From Natronobacterium texcoconense (lineage in GTDB: Archaea > Halobacteriota > Halobacteria > Halobacteriales > Natrialbaceae), in contig NZ_FNLC01000003.1 of the NCBI RefSeq assembly GCF_900104065.1, positions 1 to 64,000 of the forward strand: DNA of 64,000 nt, in the 5' to 3' direction. A program made the position numbers and the translations under genes. Positions 11,217 to 21,693 of this stretch are shown here, in pieces (the first letter of the stretch is position 1; each line of letters begins with the position of its first letter). The notes beneath the pieces were generated by a model that was given only the letters and a program-made list of their open reading frames with translations, was not told the DNA's origin and did no database searches.

Positions 11217-11278
11217 CCGTCTCGAGCGCCGACCGTTCGGGACGACACTTATGCTGTTATTTGTACAACAAAAAACGC

Positions 11279-11752
11279 ATGCCAACGACTGAAGACACTG
11301 CACCGACGTTCACGGCGACGGTCGGCACCAGCGACCACGAATCGTTCAACCTTGAGAACCACCTCGGGGACGGTCCAGTTGTCCTTGCGTTCTTCCCCGG
11401 GGCATTCACACCGCCCTGTACGAACGAGATGGTCGCCCTGCAGGAACGGCACGAGCAGTTCAAGGACGCTGGCGTGACGGTCCTCGGAGTAAGTGCGGAT
11501 TCGCCGTTCTCACAGGGCGCGTTCCGCGAGAAACACGGACTCGAGTTCGACCTCGTCAGCGACATGGCCCGTGAGGCGATCGACGCTTACGACGTCGAGA
11601 CGGATATCCCCGACCTCGGCCTTTACGGCATCGCGAACCGGGCAGTCTTCGTTCTCGATGAGGAGGGTACGATTTCGTATCGATGGGTTGCCGACGATCC
11701 GACGAACGAACCGCCCTACGATGACTTACTCGAGGCTGTCGGATCGGCCTGA
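11279..11752 (+). CDS. Single-cysteine peroxiredoxin (AhpC/TSA, Bcp-like)
   Basis: This 157-residue thioredoxin-fold peroxidase has the active-site motif F-F-P-G-A-F-T-P-P-C-T-N-E-M with the peroxidatic cysteine at residue 47 (Pro-x3-Thr-x2-Cys style). No second cysteine exists anywhere in the protein, so it should work as a 1-Cys enzyme using an external thiol. It reduces peroxides and would act in the cytoplasm. ATG 11279 was chosen: the frame extends to a TTG at 11261, but MPTTED is a normal start. It sits alone between the frameshifted membrane protein and a minus-strand operon, in a region rich in redox and metal genes. Confidence 0.87.
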   Translation: MPTTEDTAPTFTATVGTSDHESFNLENHLGDGPVVLAFFPGAFTPPCTNEMVALQERHEQFKDAGVTVLGVSADSPFSQGAFREKHGLEFDLVSDMAREAIDAYDVETDIPDLGLYGIANRAVFVLDEEGTISYRWVADDPTNEPPYDDLLEAVGSA

Positions 11753-11826: not shown

Positions 11827-12126
11827 TCACTCTTCGTTCAGTTCCGTCGTAACGTAGTATGGGTCGTCCCACTCCTGCACCCACGTCGGGGCTTCTGGAT
11901 GATCCTGAAGTTGGTTCGCCTCGTATGATTCGTCCGGGTAGACGGTTCCCGCTTCGTCGGTCCCGTCCGCCAGTGGGACGACGTAGGTCACCGGGTCGCG
12001 TTCCGGGGCGGGGATCAACTGCTTTCTGTTCCACTCGTGTGCCTGTGCCGAGGTGTCGGTCCACTTTTGCGGATGAAAGGTCACGGCAATGCCGGTTTCG
12101 TGGTCCACGTCAGTACGTTCGCTCAT
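11827..12126 (-). CDS. Conserved hypothetical protein downstream of the DUF2249 gene
   Basis: This is a 99-residue acidic protein beginning M-S-E-R-T-D-V-D-H-E-T-G-I-A-V. It has no membrane segment and no cysteines, but is rich in aromatic residues (FHPQKW, AHEWNRKQLIP, WVQEWDDPYYV). The start lies 2 bases after the stop of the DUF2249 gene, so the two are almost certainly co-transcribed and possibly translationally coupled. I do not recognise the family; the linkage suggests a shared role with the DUF2249 protein. It is a real gene by composition and spacing. Confidence 0.65.
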   Translation of the reverse strand: MSERTDVDHETGIAVTFHPQKWTDTSAQAHEWNRKQLIPAPERDPVTYVVPLADGTDEAGTVYPDESYEANQLQDHPEAPTWVQEWDDPYYVTTELNEE

Positions 12127-12128
12127 GC

Positions 12129-13160
12129 TTAGAACGGGGGGCCAGAGGATTCAGTCGGTTCCGACGCGGCGGCCGCCGTCTCGGTTTTCCCGATCAGGAC
12201 CCGGAACTCACCCGGCTCCTTCTTGCGGTATTCCCATCGGAACTCCGGACCAGCTTCGGCGTCGAACTGGTGGTATAGCGGTTTGGGATCGTGGTCGTTC
12301 ACCAAGACGAACCCTTCTCCACCGGTCAAGTCGGCGTATGAGTCGAAGATCTTTTCGTGGCGCTGGGCCGGCGGCAGGTCGCGGACATCGAGTTCCTCGA
12401 TGATTTCGAGCGATGTCGATCCGTCGTCGGTCTCGGCGTTGTCGGTTTCACCCCGTTTTGTGATGTGGACGCGACACTCCCCCGGCTTCTGGTCGACGAT
12501 CTCCCACTCGAAAGAGTCGCTGTACTTCTGTTGGAACTCCTGGCGGAGCGGTCGGGGTTCGTGCGGCGCGATAATCTCCATCGTCCCGCCCTCGGGAATC
12601 ATACCGTACCGGTGGTGAATCGTCGGATGCCGTTCCTGTTTCGGGATTTTGCGCACGTCGTAGCTTGTGACGACATCTCCGTCCTCGGCCTCCGACTCGC
12701 CGGTCTTTTCGATCTCGACGCGCCACTCCCCGTCACCTTTATTCTCGTACTCCCAGCCGACTACATCGCCATGCATCGAACTGAGTTCGTGGTACAGTGG
12801 CTTGGGGTCGTGATCGTTCACGAGCACGAACCCCTCGCTGGCATCCAATCCGTTGAAAATTTCGAGCAGGGCTTCGTGGCGACGCTGTGGCTTGAGATCT
12901 CGAACGTCGATCGTCCCGAATTCTCCATCGAGCAAATCGCCGACGCTCAACTGGAGTTTCCGCGGTTCCGCATCGGGATGGTCGTACTCCCACTCGAGCG
13001 CACGGTCGTGTTCGAGCTGGTAGCGGACCAGATACGGATCGACGTCCTCCTCGGCGACTATCTCGAAGGTGTCCCCGGCCCCGGCGTCGTTCAATACCTC
13101 GAAGAGGTACGTTCGATACTCGTCGACAGGTTGCTCGCGAAGGTCGATTTCAGTGGTCAT
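12129..13160 (-). CDS. Four-repeat DUF2249 protein
   Basis: This 343-residue soluble protein is built from four DUF2249-like units: about residues 1-75 (divergent, I-D-L-R-E-Q-P), 79-155 (I-D-V-R-D-L-K-P-Q-R-R-H), 160-238 (Y-D-V-R-K-I-P-K-Q-E-R-H) and 250-325 (L-D-V-R-D-L-P-P-A-Q-R-H). Units 2 and 4 share G-F-V-L-V-N-D-H-D-P-K-P-L-Y-H and an E-W-R-V-E or E-F-R-V-L end. DUF2249 is a TusA-like fold often found near denitrification, copper or hemerythrin genes; no biochemistry is implied here. Four copies in one chain is more than usual. It is followed at once by the 99-residue gene. Confidence 0.85.
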   Translation of the reverse strand: MTTEIDLREQPVDEYRTYLFEVLNDAGAGDTFEIVAEEDVDPYLVRYQLEHDRALEWEYDHPDAEPRKLQLSVGDLLDGEFGTIDVRDLKPQRRHEALLEIFNGLDASEGFVLVNDHDPKPLYHELSSMHGDVVGWEYENKGDGEWRVEIEKTGESEAEDGDVVTSYDVRKIPKQERHPTIHHRYGMIPEGGTMEIIAPHEPRPLRQEFQQKYSDSFEWEIVDQKPGECRVHITKRGETDNAETDDGSTSLEIIEELDVRDLPPAQRHEKIFDSYADLTGGEGFVLVNDHDPKPLYHQFDAEAGPEFRWEYRKKEPGEFRVLIGKTETAAAASEPTESSGPPF

Positions 13161-13369: not shown

Positions 13370-13744
13370 TCACCGCTCTGGTTCGAACTCGTCGTTTTGC
13401 AGACCGCGTCGAACTGGATCGTGTTCGGCGTCAGTCGGCGGCGGTGCGACCACGAGTACGGCCTCGAGGCGCTCGTCATCGGCGCGGATGCCGCGATCTT
13501 GTCCGGCCGGTATTGTGACGAGGGATCCCGGTGAGACGTCGTGTTCTTCGTTACCGTCACGGACGATCCCCGATCCTGACTGGACGACGATCGTGACGTC
13601 GCTGTCGGGGGAATGAACCGGGATGAACTGCCCGGGTTCGAAGTAGCCACAGACGGTTTTCGATCGTTCGGTTCGGGAAATTTCTCGGGTGGTGAACTGA
13701 TCGTCGTCGTACGTCCGCTCGTCGCCGATGGTCGTTGCCGGCAT
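13370..13744 (-). CDS. Cupin-domain protein
   Basis: This 124-residue protein has a single cupin barrel at about residues 30-100: F-E-P-G-Q-F-I-P-V-H-S (motif 1, with only one clear His), then P-G-S-L-V-T-I-P-A-G (motif 2). The metal ligands are incomplete compared with the classic G-x5-H-x-H-x3,4-E motif, so a catalytic role is uncertain; a small-molecule or metal sensor is possible. It sits alone between the DUF2249 operon promoter region and a HalOD1 gene. ATG 13744 gives the full barrel. Confidence 0.75.
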   Translation of the reverse strand: MPATTIGDERTYDDDQFTTREISRTERSKTVCGYFEPGQFIPVHSPDSDVTIVVQSGSGIVRDGNEEHDVSPGSLVTIPAGQDRGIRADDERLEAVLVVAPPPTDAEHDPVRRGLQNDEFEPER

Positions 13745-15760: not shown

Positions 15761-17656
15761 ATGCCTGAACGCACGAAGAGGTCCGGGAAGTCAGTCTCAC
15801 GACGACAACTCCTTCTGGCCTCAGGTGTAGCGAGTGTCTCGGCCCTCGCGGGCTGTACGACGGACGAGAATCCATCTAACACGCACGAAACACCATCGGA
15901 GACCGAAGCGAAGCCGGCAACTGTTGCATCTCACTCGTCACCAGACCTCGAGAAGTGGATCGACGAAGTACCACGCCCGGGAGTCGTAGAGCCGACGGGA
16001 ACGAAGAACGGACAGCCGTACTACGAGATCGAAATGCAGGAGTTCGAGCAGGAACTGCACAGCGACCTGTCGCCGACGACTGTCTGGGGATACGAAGGTC
16101 ACACCCCTGGCCCGACGATCGAAGCCGAACAGGGAGAGCCAATCTACGTGCGCTGGAAGAACGACCTGCCCGACGAGCATCTTCTGCCCGTCGATACGAC
16201 GGTCCACCCGGAGATGATCCCCTACGATATCGACGGCGTTCGAACCGTCACACATCTCCACGGCGGGAACATCGAGTCCGAAAGTGACGGGAAGGCCATG
16301 GGCTGGTTTACCCGGGACTTCGAGAAGACGGGCCCCGTCTTCGAGAAGAAAGATTACTACTACGTCAACGACCAGCCGCCGGCGACCCTGTGGTACCACG
16401 ACCACGCGATCGGCATCACGCGGCTGAACGTCTACGCTGGTCTCGCGGGCTTTTATTTGCTCCGGAGCGATCACGAGCGACAACTCGACCTCCCCGATGG
16501 CGAGTACGACGTCCCCCTTGCTATCCAGGACCGGAGCCTCAACGAGGACGGCTCGCTGTTCTATCCGTCGGCCGTCTCGGAAGAGCGAGGACGCGGACAC
16601 GATTCACACCCTGATCCGAGCATCGTCCCGGAATTCTATGGGGATGTCCCCGTCGTCAACGGAAAAGCCTGGCCGCGGCTCTCGGTCGAACCACGAAAGT
16701 ACCGTTTCCGGCTCCTCAACGGCTCGAACAGTCGCTACTACAACCTCGAACTCGTCGAGTACGACGAAGAATCGAGTGAGGTCGGCGACGACGGCCCGTC
16801 GTTCGTCCAGGTCGGCAACGACGGCGGTCTCCTCTCCGAGCCGGTCGAGTTCGACGATCGTCTCGAGATCGGACCGGGAAAGCGAGCCGACATCGTCGTC
16901 GATTTCAGCGACTACGCGGGGGAGACGCTGTTACTCCACAACGACGCACCGACGCCGTACCGTGGGACGCGGACAGACGACCACATGAAGCCGCTACCCG
17001 AGATCATGCTCGTCGACGTCGAGGGGACCAACGAGGACGCCGATACAGACCCAACACAACTCCCGGACGAATTGACGACGGTTCCCGAGATTCCCGTCGA
17101 GTCGGTAGACACTCACAGACACCTCACGCTCGCCATGGACACCGACGAGCACGGACGGATGAAACACCGTCTCGGAACGAAAGACCAACCGGAGGGATAC
17201 AATCTGGAGGATCCTGTGACCGAGGAACCTACGCTCGGGGAGACTGAGATCTGGAGCATCGCCAACAACACGTCGATGTCTCACCCGATGCACCTCCACC
17301 TCGTCCACTTCCAAGTGCTGGGTCGAGAGCCGCTCTCCGACTACGACTCCTCGGAGGACGGCGTCGATCCGTCCGAACTCGAGTCGCCCGAACCGTACGA
17401 TCTGGGCTGGAACGACGTGGTGTCCGTCGATCCCGGCGAAGTTGTCCACATCGTCGTTCACTTCGGGGAATACGAGGGCGTGTTCAACGACCAGACGGGC
17501 GAGTACATGTGGCACTGCCACATGGTCGAACACGAGGACTATGACATGATGCGCCCCTACCGGGTGCTGCCGGCCGACGGTTCCGATGGTGATGAGCAGG
17601 CTGTGCCCGACGACGGAACGGAGGAACACAGCGAAACAGAACCCGACGACGAGTAA
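15761..17656 (+). CDS. Tat-exported multicopper oxidase (CotA/bilirubin-oxidase-like)
   Basis: This 631-residue three-cupredoxin-domain oxidase couples one-electron oxidation of a substrate (phenolics, Cu(I) or Mn(II) in relatives) to four-electron reduction of oxygen. The N-terminus carries a twin-arginine signal S-R-R-Q-L-L-L-A-S-G-V followed by A-L-A-G-C, so it is probably a lipid-anchored exported protein. All four copper-ligand motifs are present: THLHGG (~165), WYHDHA (~211), HPMHLHLVHF (~509) and HCHMVEHEDYDMM (~586). A Met follows for the type 1 site. The acidic tail is typical of halophiles. Neighbouring HMA and DtxR-like genes suggest a copper-handling role. Confidence 0.93.
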   Translation: MPERTKRSGKSVSRRQLLLASGVASVSALAGCTTDENPSNTHETPSETEAKPATVASHSSPDLEKWIDEVPRPGVVEPTGTKNGQPYYEIEMQEFEQELHSDLSPTTVWGYEGHTPGPTIEAEQGEPIYVRWKNDLPDEHLLPVDTTVHPEMIPYDIDGVRTVTHLHGGNIESESDGKAMGWFTRDFEKTGPVFEKKDYYYVNDQPPATLWYHDHAIGITRLNVYAGLAGFYLLRSDHERQLDLPDGEYDVPLAIQDRSLNEDGSLFYPSAVSEERGRGHDSHPDPSIVPEFYGDVPVVNGKAWPRLSVEPRKYRFRLLNGSNSRYYNLELVEYDEESSEVGDDGPSFVQVGNDGGLLSEPVEFDDRLEIGPGKRADIVVDFSDYAGETLLLHNDAPTPYRGTRTDDHMKPLPEIMLVDVEGTNEDADTDPTQLPDELTTVPEIPVESVDTHRHLTLAMDTDEHGRMKHRLGTKDQPEGYNLEDPVTEEPTLGETEIWSIANNTSMSHPMHLHLVHFQVLGREPLSDYDSSEDGVDPSELESPEPYDLGWNDVVSVDPGEVVHIVVHFGEYEGVFNDQTGEYMWHCHMVEHEDYDMMRPYRVLPADGSDGDEQAVPDDGTEEHSETEPDDE

Positions 17657-17734: not shown

Positions 17735-18217
17735 TCACTCGGCACAGGCGGTGACGAAACAACTCCCCGACTCGGGCCGAATCCGATGACACGCGTCCTC
17801 ACGCGGAGAATCGACCTGCCGTTCCAACCTCTCGATTGCTTCGAATGGGAGACTGAACCCGATCCGGTAGGCGGTCTGACCGTCGATCTCGTACCCAAGG
17901 ACGCGATCGAAAAACGACACGACGACGCACTGTCGCCACGCGAGCGATTCGGCGATCGCCGTACCCTGAGCGGTCGTCTTGACGCCGTCGTACTTCTTGT
18001 GGTGGACGAGATCGGTCGCTGACAGCTTCGTCACCATTTCGGTGACGCTTCCAGGTTCGATACCGAGTTCGGCGGCGAGTTCCCCGGTTCGGACGCGGGT
18101 GTCGTTCCGACTCGAGAGCCAGTAAATGGAGAGCAAGTACCTGCCTTCGGTCTCGTTTAGCGACTTGGGGATGGGAGTTCCTCCACCGATATCCGTCGAC
18201 GAATGTGTTGTGGCCAT
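17735..18217 (-). CDS. DtxR/MntR-like metal-dependent transcriptional regulator
   Basis: This 160-residue protein has a winged helix at about residues 16-75 (EGRYLLSIYWLSSRND; VRTGELAAELGIEPGSVTEM; LVHHKKYDGVKTTAQG), the DtxR/IdeR pattern in which the second helix reads pairs of operator half-sites. It is followed by a shortened dimerisation part with C-V-V-V-S-F-F-D-R-V-L-G-Y-E-I and a Cys/His tail (EDACHRIRPESGSC). Such proteins repress metal-transport genes when Mn or Fe is bound; the ligand set is not classic, so the metal is unknown. ATG 18217 chosen; the frame runs up to 18286. It lies opposite the oxidase and HMA genes. Confidence 0.78.
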   Translation of the reverse strand: MATTHSSTDIGGGTPIPKSLNETEGRYLLSIYWLSSRNDTRVRTGELAAELGIEPGSVTEMVTKLSATDLVHHKKYDGVKTTAQGTAIAESLAWRQCVVVSFFDRVLGYEIDGQTAYRIGFSLPFEAIERLERQVDSPREDACHRIRPESGSCFVTACAE

Positions 18218-18489
18218 CGTTCGATCCAATGTAGTGCGGGAATCCGGGAGTTTCGTTTCCCGAATACCTTCGGAGAAACGAGACATAGGGTTGGGCTCTC
18301 CAGTCGTCGAACGGATGTTCTATTAAGTAGTTGTGATGACGTCTTCCGTCGATTCCAAGGGGATCGACGATACTCTGTTCGGCTACCGAGATGGCGGTGT
18401 CAATCACCGTATAAGCGCACTCCGAAACGTGTTCGGGTGTAACGATTCGTGAATAGATGATATACATACGTACGAGGATGGTGATGTCC

Positions 18490-18708
18490 ATGAGCAACAC
18501 GGTTCGTATTCGAGTACGGGACGCGATGTTCGACTGTGAATCGTGTGCGAACACGATCGAACACGTACTGGAGGCGACTTACGGCGTCGAACAGATCGAC
18601 GTCGACGAATCGACCGAACGGGTCGAAATCGATTACGATCCCGATATCGTAGCCCCGACCGAACTCGAGATGACGTTCGAGGCGTGGGGATACACGCCCC
18701 GACCGTGA
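18490..18708 (+). CDS. Heavy-metal-associated (HMA) copper-binding protein
   Basis: This 72-residue ferredoxin-like HMA domain has the metal loop D-A-M-F-D-C-E-S-C-A-N-T-I-E-H-V-L with cysteines 16 and 19. It then has G-V-E-Q-I-D-V-D and V-E-I-D-Y-D-P-D strands and a final F-E-A-W-G-Y-T-P. The usual G-M-T-C-x2-C becomes A-M-F-D-C-x2-C, still a bis-cysteine Cu(I)/soft-metal site. It is probably a cytoplasmic metallochaperone or buffer. Four in-frame ATGs occur between 18457 and 18490; the last gives the family-normal start (MSNTVRIRV). A DtxR-like regulator is divergent upstream. Confidence 0.8.
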   Translation: MSNTVRIRVRDAMFDCESCANTIEHVLEATYGVEQIDVDESTERVEIDYDPDIVAPTELEMTFEAWGYTPRP

Positions 18709-18839
18709 TCGCTTCGTCCGACGAGGCGACGGACATGTGGCTCGATGCCGTCCGGAAGGGGACCATCCAGGACGTTCCCGGTCGAGCTATGAAACCGGGA
18801 TCGAGACCGACGCGACCAGGGAACCGACACGATTCCACC

Positions 18840-19349
18840 ATGACCAGTTCTACATCGAACACCAACACGTATCTCGTCGAAACGAAGCCGGGAACCGAGG
18901 CGTACGTCGATTCGACGCTTAAGAAGTATTACGGGGATCTATTCACCGAGGTATCGATCGCTTCCGCTTCCGACGACACGGCGGGGACCATCCTGATCGA
19001 TTCGGACTACGAACTACCACTAGATGCGATACGCCGGATCAACGATGTCGAACGCGCCGCTCGGGTCGCTCATCGGATATCGGCCGTTGACGGCGAGAGA
19101 CTTGAGGCAATCGAACGGCTGTGTGCGAACGCGGCGGCATCACTGACCGACGGAGGAAGCGTCGAACTGCGAGTACGGGTGGTCCCCGGGACCGACAACG
19201 CGATCACAGCTGCAGAGATCGAACGAGTGTGTCGTGAGGCGCTCTGCAACACTGCAAGTGACGTGACGATCGATGAGGAAACAGCAGACTACAAACTCAA
19301 GGTTGTTAGTGGTGTCAGCTGTGTGTGTCTTTCTATCGTTGAACGATAG
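18840..19349 (+). CDS. Stand-alone THUMP-like RNA-binding domain protein
   Basis: This is a 169-residue protein (M-T-S-S-T-S-N-T-N-T-Y-L-V-E-T-K-P-G). The second half follows the THUMP pattern: a helical lead (LEAIERLCANAAASL), a strand V-E-L-R-V-R-V-V-P-G-T, a helix I-T-A-A-E-I-E-R-V-C-R-E-A-L, then Y-K-L-K-V-V-S-G-V-S-C-V-C-L-S-I-V-E. THUMP domains bind tRNA acceptor ends and are normally fused to modification enzymes; no catalytic domain is present here. The frame is open upstream to 18543 through Arg-rich shadow sequence; ATG 18840 begins the natural composition. The assignment is by pattern only and could be wrong. Confidence 0.6.
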   Translation: MTSSTSNTNTYLVETKPGTEAYVDSTLKKYYGDLFTEVSIASASDDTAGTILIDSDYELPLDAIRRINDVERAARVAHRISAVDGERLEAIERLCANAAASLTDGGSVELRVRVVPGTDNAITAAEIERVCREALCNTASDVTIDEETADYKLKVVSGVSCVCLSIVER

Positions 19350-19489
19350 TTCTCTTCCGTTCGTCTTTCAGCGACTTCGAACAGGGTTCGGAACTGGTGA
19401 CCGCCACGGAATTCGACCCCCATATCAATATGGAGACAAACGTATTCGACATCCTGCTTTTGAGTGGCGAACGCGTACGTGAGCCACGT

Positions 19490-19795
19490 ATGCCAACGAT
19501 TCAATCCCTCTCGGAACTGGAAAGCACCCCTCACGCGAACGTCTTCCCGACGTCGGAACCGAAGACGATCCGGCTGGAACTCGAGGCGGACGAAGCGGTC
19601 GATCGCCACTCGCATCCGGGACGTGACATCGTCTTCCACCTGCTTGAGGGCGAAATCGAACTGGAACTCGACGGCGACACCCACGAGGTCACTGCGGGCG
19701 ACGTCGCCCGCTTCGATGGCGATCAGGACATCGCACCGCGTGCCCTCGAGCCGAGTACAGCACTCATCGTCTTGGCACAGCAGGAGTCAGCGTAG
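19490..19795 (+). CDS. Small cupin protein
   Basis: This 101-residue single-domain cupin has the metal motif A-V-D-R-H-S-H-P-G-R-D-I-V-F-H-L-L-E-G-E (two His, a distal His and a Glu, close to the full cupin motif 1) and the second motif V-T-A-G-D-V-A-R-F-D-G-D-Q-D-I-A-P-R-A. It probably binds a divalent metal. Its substrate is unknown; small cupins of this size in haloarchaea are often stress-linked. ATG 19490 chosen over an upstream frame to 19397 because MPTIQSLSEL begins the fold. It lies 104 bases before the ABCE1-like gene in the same direction. Confidence 0.82.
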   Translation: MPTIQSLSELESTPHANVFPTSEPKTIRLELEADEAVDRHSHPGRDIVFHLLEGEIELELDGDTHEVTAGDVARFDGDQDIAPRALEPSTALIVLAQQESA

Positions 19796-19899: not shown

Positions 19900-21693
19900 A
19901 TGACAGACCCGACCGACATCCAGGAGCAAGAGTACGTCGCGATCATCGATCAGGACGAAGTCACCGACGAAGTCAGAGACATCGCGGTCAAGTACGATCC
20001 GCTCAACCGATCGGGGCGCGAGGGGTTTCACGTTACCGATGACGGGGGGTTACATATCGACGACGCCGTCGTCATGCGCGAGCACAAGCTGATCGAGAAG
20101 AAGATTCCCAACGACGCGATCCGGATCGTGCCGCTTCCGGCCGAAACCGGCCAGCTCGTCCACCAGTACGGCGATAACGGCTTCCGGCTCTACGAGCTGC
20201 CGATGCCCGAGGACGAGGCCGTGATCGGCCTGCTCGGGCGCAACGGGATCGGGAAGAGTACGGCACTTCGGGTCCTCGCCGGGGAGATAATTCCGAACTT
20301 CGGACTCGAGGAAGATCCCGACTGGGATCGGGCGGTCGACTCCTTTCGCGGAACGACGCTCCAGACGCACCTCGAGCAGCTTCGTAACGGAGACGTGACG
20401 ACGGCGACAAAACGGCAGCGAGTGGAGGCGCTCGTGGACGAGGCGGCCGCAGACGAGACGGTTCGGGAGCGGCTGGCCGCGTGCTCGAACGGAACTGACG
20501 GAATTTCGGACGAACTCGATTTGACGCCGCTTCTCGACCGGCGGATGGGGGATCTCTCGGGTGGCGAGCGCCAACGTCTCGAGATTGCGACTACGCTGGC
20601 GACCGACGCCGACCTCTACCTGTTCGACGAACCCTCGTCGTTTCTGGATGTCGAACGACGACTGAGCGTCGCCCGGACGATCCGTGACCGGATCACCGAG
20701 ATGGGGGCCGCAGCGGTCGTCGTCGAACACGATCTCGCGACACTCGACCTCCTCGCTGACGGGATCTACATTGCCTACGGGGAGCCGGGTGATTTCGGCG
20801 TCGTCTCCCAGCGTCTCGGGTCCCGCGAAGGTATCAACCAATTCCTCGAGGGTCAGCTCCAGCAGGAAAACGTACAGATCAGGAAGAAATCGATCTCGTT
20901 TCCGGGGCCACGGGAGCGGTCAATCCCCAAGAAGGAGGGAGTCCTCGAGTATCCGGACCTCGAGGTTGGCTTCGAAGAGTTCTCGCTGTCCGTCGAGGGC
21001 GGCACTGCCCACGAGGGCGAGTCGATCGGGATCGTCGGAGCGAACGCCCTCGGGAAGACGACGTTTGCGAAACTGCTCGCTGGGGGCATCGAACCCGACG
21101 TTGGGACCGTCCCCGATCATGCGACCGTCTCGTACAAACCGCAGTACATCGCTCCGGACGGCGACGAGACGGTCCGGGAACGGTTCGTGAAGGTTGCCGA
21201 CGTCCGTTCGCAGGCGTTCGAGACGCAGGTCTCGAAGCCGTTCGATCTCGAGACGCTGTTCGATCGTCCGCTCTCTGCGCTCTCCGGTGGCGAACTCCAG
21301 CGGGTCGCAGTAGCGCTGTGTCTCGCCCGTGAGGCGGATATGTACCTCCTGGACGAGCCGTCGGCGTTTCTCGACGTCAACCGTCGTGTCGCAGTTGCCG
21401 ACCAGCTTCGTCGGTTCGCCCGAAAGCGTGACCGGCCGCTGCTCGTGATCGACCACGACCTCTTCTTGCTCAATCGCGTCTCGGATCGACTGGTGGTCTT
21501 CGACGGCGAATCCGGGACGTACGGGGAGGCAACCGCACCACAGCCCATGCGTGAGGGGATGAACGACTTCCTCTCTTCGCTCGGCGTGACATTCCGCCGG
21601 GACGAGCGAACTGGCCGACCTCGAGTCAACAAACCCGGGAGCCAGCTCGACCGAAAACAGAAACGCTCCGGGGAGTACTACTACACGGGGTGA
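19900..21693 (+). CDS. ABCE1/Rli1-like ATPase lacking the iron-sulfur domain cysteines
   Basis: This 597-residue twin ABC ATPase has the ribosome-recycling ABCE1 layout. NBD1 has Walker A G-R-N-G-I-G-K-S-T (~112), signature LSGGERQRL (~218) and Walker B LYLFDEPSSFLD. NBD2 has GANALGKTT (~381), LSGGELQRV (~461) and MYLLDEPSAFLD. The ABCE1-type tail T-F-R-R-D-E-R-T-G-R-P-R-V-N-K is intact. The N-terminal ~80 residues align with the ferredoxin-like domain (D-P-L-N-R-S-G-R-E; I-P-N-D-A-I-R-I-V-P-L-P) but contain no cysteine: all eight cluster ligands are replaced (for example by E, V, A, D, I, H). Both ATP sites look active. It is likely a paralogue of a canonical Rli1 encoded elsewhere (inference). 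Confidence 0.88.
   Translation: MTDPTDIQEQEYVAIIDQDEVTDEVRDIAVKYDPLNRSGREGFHVTDDGGLHIDDAVVMREHKLIEKKIPNDAIRIVPLPAETGQLVHQYGDNGFRLYELPMPEDEAVIGLLGRNGIGKSTALRVLAGEIIPNFGLEEDPDWDRAVDSFRGTTLQTHLEQLRNGDVTTATKRQRVEALVDEAAADETVRERLAACSNGTDGISDELDLTPLLDRRMGDLSGGERQRLEIATTLATDADLYLFDEPSSFLDVERRLSVARTIRDRITEMGAAAVVVEHDLATLDLLADGIYIAYGEPGDFGVVSQRLGSREGINQFLEGQLQQENVQIRKKSISFPGPRERSIPKKEGVLEYPDLEVGFEEFSLSVEGGTAHEGESIGIVGANALGKTTFAKLLAGGIEPDVGTVPDHATVSYKPQYIAPDGDETVRERFVKVADVRSQAFETQVSKPFDLETLFDRPLSALSGGELQRVAVALCLAREADMYLLDEPSAFLDVNRRVAVADQLRRFARKRDRPLLVIDHDLFLLNRVSDRLVVFDGESGTYGEATAPQPMREGMNDFLSSLGVTFRRDERTGRPRVNKPGSQLDRKQKRSGEYYYTG

Follow-up and report, generated by a model that had tools for sequence, protein, structure and literature searches.

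A cluster-free ABCE1 homologue of haloarchaea and its candidate role in ribosome recycling

Few proteins of archaea and eukaryotes are as highly conserved as ABCE1, and the reason why this mechanical ribosome splitter carries oxygen-sensitive, apparently non-redox clusters is an open question. Its eight cysteines have been described as conserved (PMC7196836, PMC6656783, PMC4523923), and its FeS domain or clusters as essential (PMC7196836, PMC4523923, PMC8153317). The window analysed here, the whole stretch of 64,000 nucleotides from Natronobacterium texcoconense, holds a gene for an ABCE1-type protein that has none of the cluster ligands. What is this protein, where did it come from, and could it split ribosomes? 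A search of the open-access literature returned no description of a cysteine-free ABCE1; mention elsewhere is possible.

Gene, fold and ribosome-contact residues

The gene starts with ATG and encodes 597 amino acids. The NCBIfam model NF009945 (RLI/PRK13409) matched residues 12-596 with 671.7 bits (cut-off 469), whereas ABC-F models of the EttA, VmlR and Lsa kind gave at most 164.9 bits, far under their cut-off. The best PDB matches in HMMER searches were Pyrococcus ABCE1 (3bk7, 3j15), aligned over residues 13-595. The full ABCE1 architecture described in the initial annotation was thus confirmed from end to end, including both ATP sites and the C-terminal tail. The features of the gene are as follows.

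19900..21693, +: cluster-free ABCE1/Rli1 homologue, 597 aa (ORF, NF009945, PDB matches)
19930..20139, +: ferredoxin-like N-domain, aa 11-80, ligands replaced by V21, V25, A29, D33 and V58, H62, I65, I69 (alignment, model)
20236..20262, +: NBD1 Walker A, GRNGIGKST, K119 (motif conservation)
20323..20388, +: ABCE1-specific helix-loop-helix (HLH) insert in NBD1, aa ~142-163 (3bk7 alignment; model helices 142-148 and 153-162)
20554..20577, +: NBD1 signature, LSGGERQR (motif conservation)
20614..20634, +: NBD1 Walker B region, LYLFDEP, E244 (motif conservation)
20728..20730, +: NBD1 H-loop, H277 (motif conservation)
21037..21063, +: NBD2 Walker A, GANALGKTT, K386 (motif conservation)
21280..21303, +: NBD2 signature, LSGGELQR (motif conservation)
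21343..21363, +: NBD2 Walker B, YLLDEPS, E486 (motif conservation)
21454..21456, +: NBD2 H-loop, H519 (motif conservation)
21616..21690, +: ABCE1 C-terminal tail and hinge 2 (RPRVNKPGSQLDRKQK...), R575 and S581 kept (3bk7 alignment)

About 100 ABCE1s were aligned. At the eight ligand positions, where canonical haloarchaeal copies have cysteine without exception, the window protein shows V V A D / V H I I. All eight [4Fe-4S] cysteines are replaced, as had been noted at first for the ligands of both clusters, and the first ligand loop is one residue shorter than the canonical one. The protein has two cysteines in total, both beyond the N-domain. HMMER aligned its N-terminus with the ferredoxin domain, and the N-domain of a one-cluster homologue, described below, bridges the canonical and the cluster-free forms with 48% and 52% identity. 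Together with the structural superposition, these data agree with the earlier assignment of this region to the ferredoxin domain and not to something else. Nearly the same ligand replacements are fixed in the 25 related proteins taken into the tree. Comparison of eight pairs gave a dN/dS of 0.03-0.15 for the N-domain versus 0.10-0.21 for the nucleotide-binding domains (NBDs), the N-domain being lower in seven of the eight, and about 0.1-0.18 for the whole protein. The shared replacements and the purifying selection on the N-domain indicate that the loss of the ligands goes beyond chance. Since all eight cysteines are replaced throughout its family, the window protein is a cluster-free variant inside the ABCE1 superfamily clade and not a canonical ABCE1.

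The ATP sites are conserved. The Walker A lysines, signature serines, Walker B glutamates, H-loop histidines and Q-loop glutamines were invariant in the six groups compared, from canonical to cluster-free. The HLH insert, the hinge regions and the conserved C-terminal tail are all present according to the alignment with 3bk7 and the helices of the model, and N324 is kept as well as R575 and S581. At the Walker B of NBD1, the canonical haloarchaeal Rli1 of the same genome reads DEITPYLD instead of the usual DEPSSYLD and a euryarchaeal relative is likewise altered (DEITSYLD), while the cluster-free form keeps DEPSS.

The AlphaFold model of the window protein had a mean pLDDT of 86.7 (about 90 in the N-domain), and its N-domain showed the strand-helix-strand pattern expected of a ferredoxin-like domain. 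Model residues 9/11-597 superposed on structures of post-splitting ABCE1 on 30S or 40S (6tmf, 6zvj and 7a1g), the match beginning at residues 1-4 of those chains. Z was 37.8-43.1 and rmsd 2.9-3.6; the highest Z was that with 6tmf (43.1, rmsd 3.6, 570 residues). Contact residues were taken from the post-splitting complex (PMC7196836) and from the K60-uS12 crosslink (PMC5105147). The uS12-facing P25 and R28 are mostly kept, and K60 is largely kept in the cluster-free forms. The h44-contact loop is both shortened and altered in the cluster-free form (K15 to E, N17 to R, E19 to I), and N70 is changed to P or R; in yeast, the corresponding N74 shows synthetic lethality with N326 (PMC7196836). From fold, selection and contacts we infer a lever-arm mechanism that persists with a re-packed core.

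Distribution and stepwise loss of the clusters

The genome of the window (4.0 Mb, 99.4% complete) contains a canonical Rli1 with all eight cysteines at G000:C4:72923-74725, which shares 46% identity with the window protein and is the only other ABCE1. The cysteine-bearing copy expected elsewhere in the genome by the initial annotation was thus found, and the window gene is not the sole ABCE1. A Pelota gene is also present in this genome. A zero-cluster accessory copy was detected in 20 of the 392 sampled genomes of the order, the copy in one of these carriers (G229) ending short of the N-domain at a contig end, and the four other genomes of the genus to which the window belongs lacked it. Each of the 24 haloarchaeal carriers checked has a canonical copy as well, and all eight cysteines are kept in those canonical copies that were examined. 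The carriers include Natrinema, Natrialba, Haloferax denitrificans, Haloarcula, Halorubrum, Haladaptatus, Haloplanus and Natronomonas; several copies are plasmid-borne, some strains have two, and the databases annotate the genes simply as 'RLI'. A few copies are incomplete: G394:C3:227189-228967 has an internal TGA, G219:C4:132210-133607 matches residues 1-467 only, and G229:C5:6877-8268, at the contig end, lacks its N-terminal part. In two Thermoplasmatota genomes, a protein closely related to that of the window occurs together with a second ABCE1; in one of them, SW_10_69_26, the first is a zero-cluster form and the second has all eight cysteines.

Four deep-branching haloarchaeal genomes (G044, G046, G059, G071) have a one-cluster ABCE1 as the single ABCE1 found. 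Its ligand columns read C C C D / V H S C, except in G044, which has C C C D / V H C C. The form retains C1, C2, C3 and C8, which in the classical ferredoxin pattern are the ligands of cluster I. This assignment fits the statement that C25 and C61 of yeast Rli1 ligate different clusters (PMC4523923).

Exactly one ABCE1, without any ligand cysteine, was found in 20 of 28 Nanohaloarchaeota genomes; it is the sole ABCE1 found in 20 of the 21 with a full-length match, and G645 has an eight-cysteine ABCE1. The ligand positions are I A V D / V H A Y, slightly varied, in 18 of the 20 forms and V V A D / V H I I in the two from Ca. Nanohalalkaliarchaeum NHA21 and QJJ-7. A full-length match was absent in seven of the 28 genomes, six of which (G646-G651) gave no ABCE1 match at E ≤ 1e-15; in these six, ABCE1 is either absent or too diverged. 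Pelota was detected in two (G649, G650) of the three no-ABCE1 genomes tested. Among the genomes with a cysteine-free ABCE1, Pelota was above the cut-off in 12 of 12 tested, and an additional weaker aRF1-like match was obtained in 11 of these 12. In 19 of the 20, the ABCE1 gene is preceded upstream by a gene for a KH-domain protein. Contamination of the nanohaloarchaeal assemblies by haloarchaeal DNA was ruled out: the EF-2 genes of the NHA21 and QJJ-7 genomes group with other Nanohaloarchaeota, the GC content of the ABCE1-bearing stretch equals that of the EF-2 locus, and the synteny is common to 17 other genomes.

A tree was built from the ATPase domains alone to keep the ligand columns from influencing the topology. 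All three cluster-deficient kinds (haloarchaeal zero-cluster, nanohaloarchaeal and one-cluster) formed one clade with support of 100/100, apart from canonical haloarchaeal Rli1 (100/99), and the nanohaloarchaeal and one-cluster forms were sisters (100/98). In this tree, without the N-domain, the window protein did not group with canonical haloarchaeal Rli1. The original description as an ABCE1 paralogue that lost its cysteines is thus incomplete: the protein is not a haloarchaeal duplicate shorn of its cysteines but belongs to an ancient separate clade, and the window gene was probably acquired laterally.

The cluster-II site replacements (D, V, H) are common to all three cluster-deficient kinds, which suggests that cluster II disappeared once and cluster I afterwards. 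A topology in which cluster I was lost only once, with all zero-cluster forms in one clade versus the one-cluster form, fitted worse without being rejected (AU p = 0.083); more than one loss of cluster I is the probable course. Joining the two haloarchaeal subgroups, zero-A (to which the window protein belongs) and zero-B, in one clade was not rejected either (AU p = 0.2). Their N-domains are 72% identical versus 53% for the NBDs, which favours a common origin of the zero-A and zero-B N-domain. In the EF-2 tree, the one-cluster genomes were sister to other haloarchaea, a position that resembles that of Halorutilales/Afararchaeaceae (PMC13082222), to which they may belong. Since ABCE1 crosses the species tree, it is simplest to assume that the gene was transferred between nanohaloarchaea and haloarchaea, with passage from the former to the latter the presumed direction.

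Genomic neighbourhood and proposed function

The redox and metal neighbourhood reported around the window gene was recovered, with the peroxiredoxin, multicopper oxidase, HMA protein, DtxR-like regulator and cupins in place.

11261..11752, +: peroxiredoxin (AhpC/TSA), recurs in the islands
12129..13160, -: DUF2249 protein with four domains, recurs in the islands
13370..13744, -: cupin protein, recurs in the islands
15761..17656, +: multicopper oxidase, a neighbour at this locus that does not recur
17735..18286, -: DtxR/MntR-like metal-dependent regulator
18457..18708, +: heavy-metal-associated (HMA) protein
19490..19795, +: cupin directly upstream of the ABCE1 gene on the same strand (homologues near 9 of 19 related copies)

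The upstream cupin probably starts at 19490 and not at 19397, its homologues being about 101 aa long. The ORF at about 18819-19349 (+), initially called a THUMP protein, has no Pfam match; it encodes a small conserved protein with short homologues in 6 of 19 related islands. A 99-aa acidic protein at 11827-12126 (-), also without a Pfam match, recurs in 5 of 19 zero-A islands.

We compared 19 zero-A loci with 20 canonical rli1 loci of matched genomes. The CGCGG peptide recurred at 11 of the zero-A loci, DUF2249, the upstream cupin and an SdhB-like protein at nine each, the 1-Cys peroxiredoxin at eight, a second copy of TrpRS at six, ferredoxin and HMA at five each, and KorB at four; some of these loci carry a closely similar island and hence are not independent events. 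None of the recurrent families occurred at the 20 canonical loci. Zero-B loci lacked the zero-A island genes, with the exception of one ferredoxin. The universal stress protein was dropped as an island marker because it also lies near canonical genes. The mobile island of the Haloprofundus pMHR1-2 type (L112), with related islands, carries second copies of TrpRS, SdhB-like protein, 2-oxoacid:ferredoxin oxidoreductase and ferredoxin, and also CGCGG rSAM peptides and DUF2249 proteins.

On the explanation that we consider probable as a whole, the window gene product would be an ABCE1-type twin ATPase that splits ribosomes. Its N-terminal lever domain would keep the ferredoxin fold and the small-subunit docking site, held by ordinary protein packing in place of the two [4Fe-4S] clusters. 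ATP-driven closure of both ATP sites would swing the cluster-free domain into the uS12/h44 cleft and split the 70S ribosome with aRF1 or Pelota, as canonical ABCE1 does. In this lineage, cluster II would have been lost first, with the one-cluster form surviving, and cluster I later, probably more than once; the enzyme would be the resident sole ABCE1 of most Nanohaloarchaeota and would have spread laterally to haloarchaea, where it would serve as an accessory copy on plasmids and islands. There it would most likely stand in, without need of Fe-S, for a canonical Rli1 that oxidants, metals or lack of iron have inactivated. In favour of this explanation are the intact catalytic motifs, the sole-copy status and conserved synteny in Nanohaloarchaeota, the one-cluster intermediate, the clade support, the low dN/dS of the N-domain, the largely kept uS12 contacts, the predicted fold and the island association. 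The cluster-free ABCE1 is probably active in ribosome recycling, while the stress role in haloarchaea is plausible at somewhat less than even likelihood.

The suggestion that a cluster-free ABCE1 works when copper or peroxide destroys the clusters is in line with the sensitivity of yeast Rli1, the clusters of which are a target of oxidants and copper (PMC8153317, PMC5654725) and which is impaired by these agents and by loss of cluster ligands (PMC4523923, PMC5654725, PMC8153317). It gains support from the recurrence at zero-A loci of peroxiredoxin, DUF2249, cupin, HMA, TrpRS, SdhB-like protein and ferredoxin (5-9 of 19 each); the neighbourhood supports, but does not show, such a role for zero-A. 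Because the zero-B copies lack the redox island, the stress role may not be general. In yeast, mutating the ligands of both clusters together was lethal with or without oxygen (PMC4523923), so that canonical ABCE1 does need its clusters, and this counts against the cluster-free splitter. The changed h44 loop, the replacement of N70 and the incomplete state of some haloarchaeal copies weigh on the same side.

A changed role of the haloarchaeal accessory copies, which might bind 30S and serve in anti-association or hibernation, or be competitors of canonical Rli1, while splitting ribosomes inefficiently, is rather unlikely. These copies are patchy, often plasmid-borne and always beside a canonical copy, they keep the uS12-docking residues with an altered h44 loop, and removal of the FeS domain from ABCE1 alters both its conformational dynamics and its affinity for the ribosome (PMC6656783). 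On the other side, neither the two catalytic glutamates nor any ATP-site motif varies, and the nanohaloarchaeal relatives are the sole ABCE1, so the cluster-free members of the clade probably do the housekeeping job. Since this separate clade supplies the only ABCE1 found in most Nanohaloarchaeota, ability to recycle becomes more likely, and hibernation or quality control, offered initially as the alternative, less likely as the ancestral function. It is improbable that the gene mainly serves mobile elements and not as a stress stand-in, be it as cargo by which plasmids or islands maintain translation in their host or as part of a conflict or defence system. The plasmid location in several strains, the two copies in some, and the other duplicate housekeeping genes of the islands (TrpRS, SdhB-like, KorAB) fit this idea; the long-term purifying selection speaks against it. 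A defence function was rejected, PADLOC giving only generic ABC ATPase similarity (mad3), and no N-domain relative was found on viral contigs.

The initial annotation had considered that the gene might be the only ABCE1, with a second gene supplying the cysteine domain. A canonical copy is present, and no stand-alone eight-cysteine FeS domain was found in the 16 genomes searched, including the genome of the window, one-cluster genomes and 12 nanohaloarchaeal genomes; the search matched only ABCE1s themselves in the genome of the window and in one-cluster genomes, and in nanohaloarchaea it gave at most a weak match to the cysteine-free ABCE1. Because the window protein, moreover, keeps its own N-domain, which is predicted to fold, a split ABCE1 is very improbable. 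Less probable still is decay, with the gene as a pseudo-paralogue of canonical Rli1 from which drift removed the cysteines: truncation or a stop codon in a few copies would fit this, but the low dN/dS of the whole protein and the N-domain, the near-identical replacements in 25 proteins, the separate 100/100 clade and the full set of catalytic residues all oppose it.

Implications and comparison with known systems

The natural series of two-, one- and zero-cluster ABCE1s opens the role of the clusters to direct test. Should cluster-free members prove able to split ribosomes, the clusters would be structural or regulatory additions and not part of the power stroke; that cluster-free relatives are the only ABCE1 found in most nanohaloarchaea suggests that clusters may not be universally needed. 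The family would also supply an ABCE1 without ligand cysteines for labelling, for which the eight cysteines have been named an obstacle (PMC6656783), and is a candidate case of translation machinery made iron-independent. With slightly more confidence than doubt, we would extend this to Fe-S-independent archaeal recycling by an enzyme that is the sole recycling ATPase of most Nanohaloarchaeota, lost its clusters stepwise and was passed to haloarchaea and halophilic Thermoplasmatota as a stand-in.

Compared with canonical ABCE1/Rli1 (P. abyssi 3bk7, archaeal post-splitting 6tmf, yeast Rli1), the window protein shares the twin ATPase, HLH insert, hinges, C-terminal tail, N-domain fold and uS12-contact residues, whereas it has none of the eight Fe-S ligands, a shorter first loop and changed h44-contact residues, and in haloarchaea the cluster-free form is accessory and patchy. 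The engineered truncation of S. solfataricus ABCE1 likewise has no Fe-S clusters, but it deletes the whole FeS domain, whereas the window protein keeps a domain that is predicted to be folded and is more conserved than the ATPase domains. ABC-F proteins (EttA, VmlR, Lsa) are also twin ABC ATPases on ribosomes but lack an FeS-like N-domain. The zinc-free 'C-minus' paralogues of bacterial ribosomal proteins are metal-free stand-ins; although the proteins are unrelated, in both cases a cofactor-free paralogue of a translation component stands beside the cofactor-bearing one.
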